From NCBI RefSeq assembly GCF_026340655.1, contig NZ_JAPEOZ010000001.1, forward strand, positions 4,402,001-4,466,000: a DNA stretch of 64,000 bases, in the 5' to 3' direction. The position numbers and the translations under genes were made by a program. The stretch is from Streptomyces sp. NBC_01275 (lineage in GTDB: Bacteria > Actinomycetota > Actinomycetes > Streptomycetales > Streptomycetaceae). This document shows positions 49,307 through 54,382 of this stretch, in pieces. How positions within the stretch are numbered: position 1 is the first letter of the stretch; each line of letters starts with the position of its first letter. The notes beneath the pieces are model-generated. The model was not told the DNA's origin and did no database searches. It saw only the letters and a list, made by a program, of their open reading frames with translations.

Positions 49307-51317
<2,011 letters not shown>

Positions 51318-51477
51318 TCAACGAGAATCGAGATTGGATTCCGGCCAGTCGCTCCGCGCATTTCCGACGGCCCGCGCCGCACCCGCAATACGTCGACACC
51401 GACAACGCCACGCGTATTTCGCGAACCTTCCATTCCCGCAGGTTCTGGCCTCGACCGACGATTCTGCGCCCCCACCC

Positions 51478-51496
51478 GGGCCTTGCCGCAAGCCCC
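51478..51496 (-). promoter_or_regulatory. Rifamycin-associated element (RAE)
   Basis: On the rox strand the sequence is GGGGCTTGCGGCAAGGCCC, which as I remember it is the complete 19-bp RAE found upstream of rifamycin-inducible resistance genes (rph, rgt, rox, helR). A TATAGC -10-like hexamer (51504-51509) lies just upstream, so transcription would start at the edge of the element. Confidence 0.88.
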
Positions 51497-51692
51497 CCTG
51501 TGCGCTATACGTTGGGAGTGGAAAGGAGTGAGCAACCTCCTTTCCCCGTCGCGGGAGGCATTCGCCGCGGGAGGCATTCGCCACCGAGATTCGGAATCTC
51601 CACGCGAGGCGAGCGACCGTGACCGCCGACCTTCGGATCACCCGGACGCTGCCCGGATGTACCGCTCGATGGGCGCGAATTTGAAGGTCGCG

Positions 51693-51764
51693 CATCTGTT
51701 GAGGGTCGTGGATCTGTTGAGGGTCGTGGATCTGTTGAGGGTCGTGGATCTGTTGAGGGTCGTG
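51693..51764. repeat. 18-bp tandem repeat, 4 copies of GATCTGTTGAGGGTCGTG
   Basis: Four copies differing only at the first base, ending three bases from the stop codon of the HAD gene. The array would lie in the 3' untranslated region of that gene. Confidence 0.95.
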
Positions 51765-51767
51765 GAT

Positions 51768-52229
51768 CTACGGCTGTCCGTCCCCGATCCACTCCGCCAC
51801 CGCCGCCAGATCCGCGTCCGTGAGGCCCCGACGCGGGTCGACGTGGTGGAGGAGCGCCGGGGCGGGGTGGTGGGCGGCGACCCAGGCGTGGTCGGTCGGG
51901 GTGATCTCGTCGTCGAGCCAGATGAAGGGGCGGGCGGCGGCCCAGGTGACGAGGGGGCGGGTTTTCCAGTGCAGGCCCCTGGTCTCCGGTTCGTCCGGCC
52001 AGTGCACCACCGGCAGCGGGGGCAGGCCGAGCCATGGCGCGAGGAGGGCGTTCGCGTCGTCCAGCCAGGTCGTGGCCCACACCAGCTCGCAGCCCAGGGC
52101 GAGCAGGCGGGGGCCGAGGGCCGGGTCGAGGCGGGGCAGCAGGGGGTGGGGCGACGTTCCGTGCAGCGGATAGGGCTCCGTGCCTCCGAACGGGATCAGC
52201 GTGCCGTCGATGTCGAGGAAGAGCAGCAT
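51768..52229 (-). CDS. HAD-superfamily protein (Swiss-army-knife RNA repair type)
   Basis: A 153-residue protein starting MLLFLDIDGTLIPFGG (HAD motif I DxDGT) with WATTWLDDANALL (motif II) and FIWLDDEITPTDHAW (motif IV). This short form resembles the HAD domain of Swiss Army Knife RNA repair proteins and should remove phosphate, perhaps from RNA ends. It starts 32 bp after the HelD-like gene on the same strand, so the two may be one operon. Confidence 0.8.
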   Translation of the reverse strand: MLLFLDIDGTLIPFGGTEPYPLHGTSPHPLLPRLDPALGPRLLALGCELVWATTWLDDANALLAPWLGLPPLPVVHWPDEPETRGLHWKTRPLVTWAAARPFIWLDDEITPTDHAWVAAHHPAPALLHHVDPRRGLTDADLAAVAEWIGDGQP

Positions 52230-52261: not shown

Positions 52262-54382
52262 TCACCAGGGCAACTCCCGGTCGTGCACCACCTCCAGTCG
52301 GGAGACCGCGCGGGTCAGGGTGACGTAGAGGCGGTTCAGGCCTCGTGGGTCGGATTCGGCGATGGCCGTCGGTTCTACGGCGACCACGTGGTCGTATTCC
52401 AGGCCCTTGGCCAGGGTCGCGGGGACGACGGTGACCCGGGGGGACGGGGTGAGGCCGGAGTCGGTGAGGGTCCGGTGGAGGCGGGGGGTGTCGGCGTCGG
52501 CCGCGACGACGCCGATCGAGCCCTCGTGGACGAGTGCGTCGCGTACGGCGGAGACGACCGCGGCCGGCAGGTCGCCGTCGGCTCGGCGGATCCGGAGGGA
52601 GCCGTCCCGGCGTAGGGAACGGGGGCGGGGCACGTCGGCGTCCAGGCGGTCGAGGACGCGGGCCGCGAGGGCGAGGATCTCGGTCGGGACGCGGAAGCCC
52701 GTGGTCAGGGAGACGATCGTCGCGTCCGGCTTGCCCAGGTGGGTCATCAGCGTCGGCCAGGAGCTCGCCGCCCAAGGAGTGGTCCCCTGGGCCAGGTCGC
52801 CGAGGACCGTGAGCGAGCCGAAGGGGACCCGGCGGGCGATGGCCCGGCACTCCATCGGGGAGAGGTCCTGCGCCTCGTCGACGACGACATGGCCGTACCC
52901 CTGGGGGTGGTCCAGGAGGCCGGCGATCTCGTCGAGGAGGACCAGGTCGGCGGCCGACCAGCGGGCGGACTTCGGCGAGCGGGGCGGGCGCGGCCAGTGC
53001 AGAGCCTGTTGTTCGTCCGCGCTCAACAGGCCTTCCGCCGCGTGCGTCAGCGACTTCGCGTCGGTGAGGAGTTCGGCCAGCACCTCCTCCGGGGTCGTTC
53101 TCGGCCACATCGCCTCCACGCACGCGCTCACCGCCCGCGCCCGTTCGATCCTGCGCAGCCAGGAACCGGGGCGCGGTCCGCTGCGCCGTTCGGCCTGGTG
53201 CTGGATCCGGCGGACGATCCGGCTGCGCACCCGCTCCCGCCCGATCTCGTACGGCGGCTCCTCGGCGAGCACTCCGCGCACCAGCTCGGTCAGCGCATCG
53301 CCCGCGATCCGCCAGCGGTACGAACCGTCCGGGAGGCAGAGGTCCTCGGCCCGGTCGGGCGTCACCCGCACCCGTCCGTACAGCGCCCTGCGCAGCACCT
53401 CCGCCATCCGGGCGTCGTGCTTGACGGCGGCCGTCCGGTCGGGGTCCGCTCCGGTCACCGGGTGGCGGGCGATCTCGTCGTGCAGCGTCGCCTGCCGTAC
53501 GCCCGTCTCGCCCAGGGCGGGCAGGACCTCCGCGATGTAGGAGAGGAACGTGCGGTTGGGGCCGAGGATCAGCAGGCCGGCGCGTTGGATGCGGCGGGGG
53601 TGGGTGTAGAGGAGGTAGGCGGCCCGGTGCAGGCCCACGGCGGTCTTGCCGGTGCCGGGCGCGCCCTGCACGCACACCGACTCGGCGAGTTCGCCCCGGA
53701 CCAGGTCGTCCTGCTCGGGCTGGATCGTCGCCGCGATGTCCCGCATCGGGCCCACTCTGGGGCGTTCGATCTCTCGCGTCACGATGGCACTGGCGCCGAC
53801 ACCGGGAGGAACAGTCACCGCAGACGCCGGAGCGGAAGTCTCACCCCCGTCCAGTCCGTCCAGTCCGTCCAGTCCGTCCAGTCCGTCCAGTCCGTCCAGG
53901 TGCTCGTCCTCCAAGCCCGTGAGGTCGGCGGAGTCCCCTCGGCTGCCCTGTGCCCAGCCGAAGCGGCGGCGGACGGCGACGCCCTGGGGGTCGCGGGCGC
54001 TCGCCTGGTAGAAGGCGCGGGAGACGGGGGCGCGCCAGTCGACGACAAGGGGCGGCGCGGCGGGGTGCTCGCTGATGCGGAGCCGGCCGACGTGGTAGCC
54101 GAGTCCGTCGTGTGCGCCGCCCGTTCCCCGGACGAAGTCCAGCCGGCCGAAGAACAAGGGGCCCTCGGGCAGTTCGTGCAGAGCCTTGGCCTGGCTGCGC
54201 AGCCGGTACCCGAGGACTTCGGCGCCGGCGCCGGAGGCGGAGACGTCCACGCCGGTGACCACCTGGAGGTCGGCGCCCTCGACCATGGCGGCGAGGGCGG
54301 CACGGCAGGTGTCGTGGTGGGCGCGTTCGTGGCGGAGGACGGTGTGGAGGTCGTCCTCGGGGGTGAGGTCGGGTGCCGTCAT
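52262..54382 (-). CDS. helD: HelD/HelR-family RNA polymerase-binding superfamily 1 ATPase
   Basis: A 706-residue protein. The N-terminal part has HelD hallmarks (PLFFGRLDF, YHVGRLRIS, PLVVDWRAPVSRAFYQASARDP). A split SF1 ATPase follows: Walker A VQGAPGTGKTAVGLHR (about 234-249), Walker B YGHVVVDEAQDLSPMECRA (about 497-515), VVSLTTGFRVPTEI and LEYDHVVAVEP near the end. HelD proteins remove nucleic acid from stalled RNA polymerase, and the HelR branch protects polymerase from rifamycins. I cannot decide between HelD and HelR by sequence; no RAE precedes this gene. A Gly-Leu-Asp repeat lies at about 161-178. Confidence 0.85.
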   Translation of the reverse strand: MTAPDLTPEDDLHTVLRHERAHHDTCRAALAAMVEGADLQVVTGVDVSASGAGAEVLGYRLRSQAKALHELPEGPLFFGRLDFVRGTGGAHDGLGYHVGRLRISEHPAAPPLVVDWRAPVSRAFYQASARDPQGVAVRRRFGWAQGSRGDSADLTGLEDEHLDGLDGLDGLDGLDGLDGGETSAPASAVTVPPGVGASAIVTREIERPRVGPMRDIAATIQPEQDDLVRGELAESVCVQGAPGTGKTAVGLHRAAYLLYTHPRRIQRAGLLILGPNRTFLSYIAEVLPALGETGVRQATLHDEIARHPVTGADPDRTAAVKHDARMAEVLRRALYGRVRVTPDRAEDLCLPDGSYRWRIAGDALTELVRGVLAEEPPYEIGRERVRSRIVRRIQHQAERRSGPRPGSWLRRIERARAVSACVEAMWPRTTPEEVLAELLTDAKSLTHAAEGLLSADEQQALHWPRPPRSPKSARWSAADLVLLDEIAGLLDHPQGYGHVVVDEAQDLSPMECRAIARRVPFGSLTVLGDLAQGTTPWAASSWPTLMTHLGKPDATIVSLTTGFRVPTEILALAARVLDRLDADVPRPRSLRRDGSLRIRRADGDLPAAVVSAVRDALVHEGSIGVVAADADTPRLHRTLTDSGLTPSPRVTVVPATLAKGLEYDHVVAVEPTAIAESDPRGLNRLYVTLTRAVSRLEVVHDRELPW
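53847..53900. repeat. 9-bp in-frame tandem repeat in helD, encoding six Leu-Asp-Gly units
   Basis: Six head-to-tail CCGTCCAGT units (the last with one change). Copy-number change would keep the frame and vary a flexible acidic linker just before the ATPase core. Confidence 0.95.

Follow-up and report, generated by a model that had tools for sequence, protein, structure and literature searches.

The window, a stretch of 64,000 nucleotides of DNA from the soil bacterium Streptomyces sp. NBC_01275, carries a rifampin monooxygenase gene (rox) on its minus strand. The gene is preceded by a 19-bp near-palindrome of the pattern GGGNCTTGCNGCAAGNCCC, which we take to be the rifamycin-associated element (RAE). 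The gene, its leader and the palindrome are placed as follows.

49821 to 51305, minus strand: rox, rifampin monooxygenase (NF033145, 848.1 bits against a cut-off of 800; RIFMO structures 5vqb and 5kow)
51371 to 51427, minus strand: leader stretch resembling the start of rgt, a probable remnant (local alignment with the genome's own rgt start)
51478 to 51496, minus strand: RAE GGGGCTTGCGGCAAGGCCC, near-perfect palindrome with 8 of 9 arm pairs (exact 19-mer match)

The rox product covers positions 1-472 of the 472 of the NF033145 profile and exceeds the family cut-off (848 vs 800 bits), and its best solved matches are 5vqb and 5kow, aligned at full length with 735-751 bits. The earlier note had read the gene as encoding a Rox/RIFMO flavoprotein and had proposed a comparison with RIFMO structures; the family profile and the structures bear it out as a Rox/RIFMO-family monooxygenase. 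The alignment with RIFMO favours ATG 51305 as the likely start, ATG 51317 being a longer option.

A gene for a HelD-like motor ATPase adjoins rox (52262-54382, minus strand). It falls under all four HelR/HelD cut-offs that it matched and is not assignable to HelR (293.7 vs 1100 and 252.5 vs 750 bits), and no RAE precedes it within the window. As a functional partner of rox it was set aside, being below the cut-offs and having a relative close to rox in no more than 2 of the 80 loci (E up to 1e-10). The HelR_2 model matches seven places in the genome, this gene among them. No regulator was recognised beside rox among the 14 largest clusters of neighbouring frames of ≥110 residues in the 80 rox loci; 13 of these clusters overlap rox by position, and the remaining one is present in 47 loci. 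An 18-bp tandem repeat, TTGAGGGTCGTGGATCTG, is present in almost five copies at 51681-51769, just upstream of the extended element described below, and separates that element from a small gene, judged HAD-like by eye, to which no NCBIfam family matches.

The exact 19-mer reported previously on the rox strand was confirmed at its place on the minus strand. It is the one site in the 64-kb window with ≤3 mismatches, against 0.10 expected from shuffles (one in 100 of these gave 2 matches), and is reported on both strands, with 0 and 3 mismatches, because it is nearly palindromic. In the whole genome (10.4 Mb) the strict GGGNCTTGCNGCAAGNCCC pattern occurs at two places and the reversed control pattern at none. 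When 3 mismatches are allowed there is no enrichment over the control (42/52 vs 149/137), and hence only the two genomic sites with ≤1 mismatch are counted. The search for further copies, which had been suggested as a check, thus yields one other, before rgt-helR. The rgt gene behind it matches NF000354 with 535 bits, under the cut-off of 800, and its 3' end overlaps the start of the next gene by a few bases. That gene is HelR (NF041254, 1278 bits vs a cut-off of 750) and, like the rox-adjoining HelD-like gene, is among the HelR_2 matches. No arr was found in the genome at E up to 0.001.

The position of the RAE upstream of a rifamycin-resistance gene, here rox, agrees with the known element, a 19-bp palindrome found before rox, rgt, helR, rph and arr. 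The available portions of two papers describe it as a "19 bp palindrome" of unknown mechanism, with the letters not given (PMC12802891, PMC10719064), and according to the portion available of the former, which dates from 2026, its precise regulatory mechanism is still to be elucidated. Excerpts of the literature report that the Rox of S. venezuelae was found through its RAE (PMC7283461), and the pairing of RAE with rox is already known from that species (PMC7283461, PMC10719064). They also report that of its five helD genes only the RAE-bearing one is induced by rifampicin (PMC10719064, PMC8655204), and that removal of half the RAE in M. abscessus led to loss of induction (PMC10719064). Rifamycin-inducible expression of rox in the present strain is a reasonable prediction from this published work.

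The surroundings of the RAE were compared in 80 named rox loci obtained by a Rox protein search. In 77 of them the 1000 bases upstream of rox contain an RAE with ≤1 mismatch, none being found by this criterion in L056, L081 and L112. These 77 elements, 30 genus copies and the 2 own copies (109 elements) were aligned without gaps on the RAE. Conservation extends from ~60 bases upstream to ~45 bases downstream of the palindrome and is weak at most further out. The upstream part consists, in order, of an A-rich tract, a hairpin GGCAAGGAG-N-CTCCTTGCC with a loop of mostly 4-9, and CACTCTCAAC-N-TATAGCGCAC before the RAE; the downstream part consists of GGTCGTGCCGCAGAATC and a weaker stretch. The information profile shows conservation to stop just past the stretch that is U-rich on the antisense strand. 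As judged from these alignments, the RAE lies at the middle of a conserved element some 110-130 bp long. In the excerpts cited above the RAE is described as the palindrome alone, whereas here it stands within a longer element with an antisense hairpin unit. The parts of this element in the window are given below.

51430 to 51562, minus strand: extended conserved element, approximate extent (match of model R1 at G000:C1:4453430-4453562, and information profile)
51486 to 51491, minus strand: TTGCGG inside the RAE, proposed -35 of a rox promoter with a 19-bp spacer (position and base conservation)
51461 to 51466, minus strand: CAGAAT, proposed -10 of the rox promoter (A2 and T6 in 163/164 elements, fixed spacing)
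51452 to 51456, minus strand: predicted start of the rox transcript, about 51454 (7 nt counted from the -10)
51483 to 51488, plus strand: TTGCCG inside the RAE, proposed antisense -35 with a 19-bp spacer (position)
51508 to 51513, plus strand: TACGTT, proposed antisense -10, overlapping TATAGC at 51504-51509 (TANNNT in 162/164 elements)
51520 to 51545, plus strand: antisense 5' hairpin GGAAAGGAG-N8-CTCCTTTCC, counted from the predicted antisense start (covariation in relatives; folding)

The two hexamers outside the palindrome are arranged symmetrically. The starts of CANAAT (rox strand) and TANNNT (opposite strand) are each 21 nt from the RAE centre, and each hexamer lies 19 bp from a TTGCNG within the RAE. 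CANAAT follows the RAE at a distance of 11 nt, and the RAE would then serve as the -35 region of a rox promoter; A2 and T6 of this hexamer are fixed in 163 of 164 distinct elements. These comprise 116 of the Streptomyces-plus-rox set and 48 others from the phylum and a Mycobacterium-like genus, three duplicates and one cut-off element having been excluded. The base counts of the 48 others are not independent, since they were found with a model containing those bases and their RAE sites were chosen by a score favouring the hexamers. The 77 rox loci were picked by the RAE alone, and the antisense TA...T triple is present in 77/77 and the sense A2/T6 pair in 76/77 of them, against 0.6% and 3%, respectively, expected per site. 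Both are also present in 30/30 genus copies, which TATA had helped to orient and of which none was dropped. The A2/T6 criterion alone is also satisfied at other conserved places, among which only the antisense hexamer has a T at position 1 as well. The -35 matches are weak (TTGCGG 3/6, TTGCCG 4/6) and a 19-bp spacer is long. A consensus scan of 51200-51800 recorded neither a promoter of sigma-70 type nor an intrinsic terminator, and is blind to the features proposed here because it accepts 16-18-bp spacers only and demands 5 T in 8.

The earlier note had assigned the promoter differently, with TATAGC as the -10 of rox and the RAE at the very start of the transcript. On such a model the RAE would act at the RNA 5' end. 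TATAGC does occur 7 nt ahead of the RAE, at 51504-51509, and is strongly conserved. Its sixth base is C in 116/116 Streptomyces-plus-rox elements and 46/48 others, and T in none, which speaks against its use as a -10 by rox; the place of the expected -35 is occupied by a hairpin arm on inspection of the profile, and RAE bases 4 and 16 are often non-complementary (G and G in the window), which lends no weight to an RNA hairpin. The hexamer counts, together with the C at position 6 (162/164), led us to take the RAE as a shared -35 and to refuse TATAGC as the rox -10. With the start predicted downstream of the RAE, the proposed leader of ~170 bases keeps its length only as the distance between RAE and rox (172 nt). 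The earlier reading is right on what is present and probably wrong on the assignment of the promoter.

Published mapping in M. smegmatis bears on both assignments. The available part of PMC10719064 gives two mapped promoters for helD; promoter 2 shares part of its -35 region with the RAE, and the promoter 1 start lies about 20 bp upstream of the RAE. Promoter 2 agrees with the reading of the RAE as a -35, which leaves promoter 1 unexplained. The RAE ~20 bp into the promoter 1 transcript means that some transcripts may contain it, in keeping with the TATAGC model, which on all the evidence we consider decidedly unlikely. The parts available of PMC11077062, PMC11464796 and PMC6448022 give no start site for an RAE gene.

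The hairpin upstream of the RAE (hairpin 1) appears to be maintained by compensatory changes. There are 33 compensatory double-change cells against 13.1 ± 2.7 in shuffles (0/500 as high), and at most 17 when the partner arm is slid by 1-3 columns. Two other covariation measures do not exceed shuffles (pairs with double changes, 92/500; pair types, 158/500), and all of these counts, like those of strand bias, are of sequences and not of independent events. Among the non-standard pairs of 96 of 108 stems, 12 poorly formed ones having been dropped, 23 are A-C and 8 G-T in sense letters. As A-C pairs become G-U on the opposite strand, the hairpin leans to the antisense strand. The 10 nt upstream of the 96 stems contain 58.6% A as compared to 19.6% further upstream, which on average places a U-rich stretch after the antisense hairpin. 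The varying loop lengths are like those of RNA hairpins and unlike most protein-binding palindromes. Folding from the predicted antisense start gave z below -2 in 99/116 elements of the Streptomyces and rox set, against 4/116 for a control stretch in the sense leader; for the set from the phylum and the Mycobacterium-like genus the values are 21/48 and 7/48.

The hairpin of the window shows double changes relative to the consensus and is followed by CCGTCGCGGG in place of a U-tract. For the predicted antisense RNA, relatives offer a hairpin and, on average, a U-rich stretch; in the window this RNA would have the hairpin and lack the U-tract, and the scan, with its limits given above, records no terminator. 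Directly behind the antisense hairpin a 16-bp tandem repeat is present in two copies at 51550-51582, where many relatives carry the U-rich stretch. The hairpin of the rgt copy is weak (z -0.39, no better than shuffles). In L172, L174 and L166, which are Mycobacterium-like, its sequence is wholly different and looks like a textbook terminator, whereas visual inspection of the Mycobacterium-like examples L183-L185 shows no evident hairpin of this kind. Pairing between hairpin 1 and the RAE as an alternative was rejected, as the hairpin arm is changed in the window (CTTTCC) and the RAE is not.

A covarying hairpin could also belong to an RNA switch, in which a longer transcript from upstream would contain hairpin 1, an RAE hairpin and a third hairpin, rearranged by the drug. 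The RAE and the downstream stretch could pair on paper, and the pairs of the RAE palindrome never vary, which is neutral on RNA pairing. Against such a switch, the non-standard pairs of hairpin 1 lean antisense, the third helix shows no covariation (2 double-change cells vs 1.9 shuffled), and the inner helix is not above shuffles (5 vs 3.0; 74/500). Further, an Rfam search gave no family at E up to 1, and no conservation is seen upstream of the A-rich tract. The riboswitch or attenuator reading was set aside on the covariation counts of the other helices and the lack of an Rfam match, and we regard it as very improbable.

The distribution of the element was followed at three levels. In the own genus the strict RAE pattern was found in 316/392 genomes and the reversed control in four table rows. 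One copy per genome was read in 30 of these, the gene being the first frame that matched with more than 100 bits; all 30 have a rifamycin-resistance gene behind the RAE (rox 11, helR 11, rgt 6, rph 2). A covariance model of the extended element was built from 58 elements, including both own copies. In the own genome it returns the same two places (E 3.8e-29 and 2.3e-27; next match E 7.3), scores which are high partly by construction since both copies are among the 58 sequences. Beyond the sequences used to build it, the model matches in 46/396 genomes of the phylum, including families outside the class, ten of the 46 rows being of the window's own genus with the own genome included, and in the Mycobacterium-like genus it matches in 113/148 genomes. 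The first gene is rox in 16, rph in 8, helR in 3, rgt in 1 and arr in 1 of 29 phylum loci, one of which (L135) repeats a genus copy, and rox in 20, rgt in 7 and helR in 1 of 28 Mycobacterium-like loci. In all 57 loci from both searches a rifamycin-protection gene is therefore the first named gene behind the element. The Streptomyces-like L133 and L134 may be contaminants, as some phylum genomes are fragmented, with contamination of up to 6%.

Several copies deserve separate mention. A 5.0-Mb genome (G773) has three elements, L200, L201 and L152, before a helR-like gene, arr and rgt, respectively. Outside the class, L161 lies before arr (NF033144, 211 bits vs 130), with a differing upstream sequence and antisense TACAAT. 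A 3.27-Mb Mycobacterium-like genome retains a degenerate element (L199:2194-2212; RAE with 3 mismatches, altered hexamers), behind which none of the five protection genes was found. helR stands behind the element in L046, L039, L025, L036 and L044, and in the last three a short rgt-like stretch (23-37 bits) lies between them. Element copies with CATAAT and altered hairpins resemble each other. Related DNA is present on 36 of 72,556 plasmid records, 29 of these from Streptomyces.

The leader of rox retains a trace of another gene. The stretch 51371..51427 aligns locally with the own rgt start with a score of 45, reached by 1/1000 shuffles, and rgt-start-like sequence lies between element and rox in the window and in 8/77 other rox leaders (E up to 0.01). 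This indicates that the control region apparently moved between genes, and for at least some rox genes an rgt locus seems to be its source. Conservation of the element could then reflect shared ancestry only, the promoter region having been copied along with rgt, helR and rox and its antisense features being functionless. Such an explanation, which the rgt-like leaders support, has to reckon with flanks that are weakly conserved at most, with hairpin pairing kept by compensatory changes and -10-like sites that are fixed, and with the same layout in families outside the class, where other hairpin sequences stand at the same place. We therefore consider it unlikely.

Taken together, the comparison suggests a promoter element that works in two directions and is longer than the known motif, which would be just its core. 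We propose, at about even chances, that the RAE is the centre of a composite element with a shared -35, divergent promoters and a putative RAE-binding factor deciding the expression of rox. The rox-ward promoter would be TTGCGG-N19-CAGAAT and the outward one TTGCCG-N19-TACGTT, the latter yielding a very short non-coding RNA. This RNA would open with the hairpin, directly followed in many relatives by the U-rich tract, so that on the antisense side a promoter would run at once into a terminator, in the average of the relatives if not in the window with its missing U-tract. Only one promoter could be occupied at a time, since both polymerases would need the same -35 DNA. A putative factor, responsive to rifamycin or to blocked RNA polymerase, would bind the RAE and set the outcome; the drug would raise rox and, from the second copy, rgt-helR. 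A dedicated binding factor is suggested by the base profile, in which GGG...CCC is near-invariant beyond any -35 hexamer. The element, its spacings, the hairpin, its strand and the genes behind it are supported by comparison, while promoter activity, start points, the factor and induction are what we infer from them. The extended anatomy, with its divergent promoters and antisense hairpin, was not found in the literature searched, which comprised papers other than the primary RAE reports.

RNA polymerase alone could conceivably act as the sensor, as in helD/pps of B. subtilis, where, according to the part of PMC12802891 available, rifampicin is sensed by two convergent promoters. A stronger antisense promoter would hold the sense promoter down without drug, and drug-arrested antisense polymerase would relieve it. 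There are two likenesses: the antisense promoter of B. subtilis, upstream of a rifampicin-protection gene, has a 19-bp spacer and gives a short terminated RNA (PMC12802891), and on the antisense strand of the RAE element a promoter-like site with a spacer of that length and an early hairpin are predicted. The geometry differs. The B. subtilis promoters are convergent with 39 bp between their starts, and inducibility is lost there when the spacing is shortened to a polymerase clash (same excerpt); the predicted RAE promoters are divergent, share the RAE with overlapping -35 regions and do not form a convergent, non-overlapping pair, and the regulated gene is on the other side. The hairpin, moreover, would halt antisense polymerase before any upstream sense promoter.

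Occupancy of a shared site was also modelled with 20,000 random parameter sets per condition and 1 to 80% drug-bound polymerase. The best induction ratios run from 0.99 down to 0.2, or from 1.0 to 0.96 (rounded) when arrested complexes are cleared fast, in a formula that cannot exceed 1 and assumes a fixed polymerase pool without supercoiling or pausing. As no induction is obtained at any drug-bound fraction tested, competition between polymerases alone is insufficient under these assumptions, and the steric polymerase-only switch was set aside on this ground. On this calculation the convergent-promoter model of B. subtilis does not transfer to the RAE element. We hold polymerase-only sensing to be improbable, and the putative RAE-binding factor is the likelier sensor.

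The extended divergent element, which comparison supports, is a more interesting result than the pairing of RAE and rox. The model built on it may outdo the 19-mer as a search tool for rifamycin-protection genes, and the element, with its two predicted promoters, antisense start and hairpin, provides concrete objects on which the mechanism of the RAE can be tested. The short backward transcript may itself be part of rifamycin sensing. More tentatively, and with the odds somewhat against it, the RAE may be no free-standing operator, and the divergent pair around it may operate across the phylum, its backward promoter firing straight into a hairpin terminator and the resulting RNA of ~25-45 nt being integral to sensing. 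If true, this would be a second, independently evolved rifamycin alarm with two promoters, arranged in the reverse geometry to the Bacillus one.
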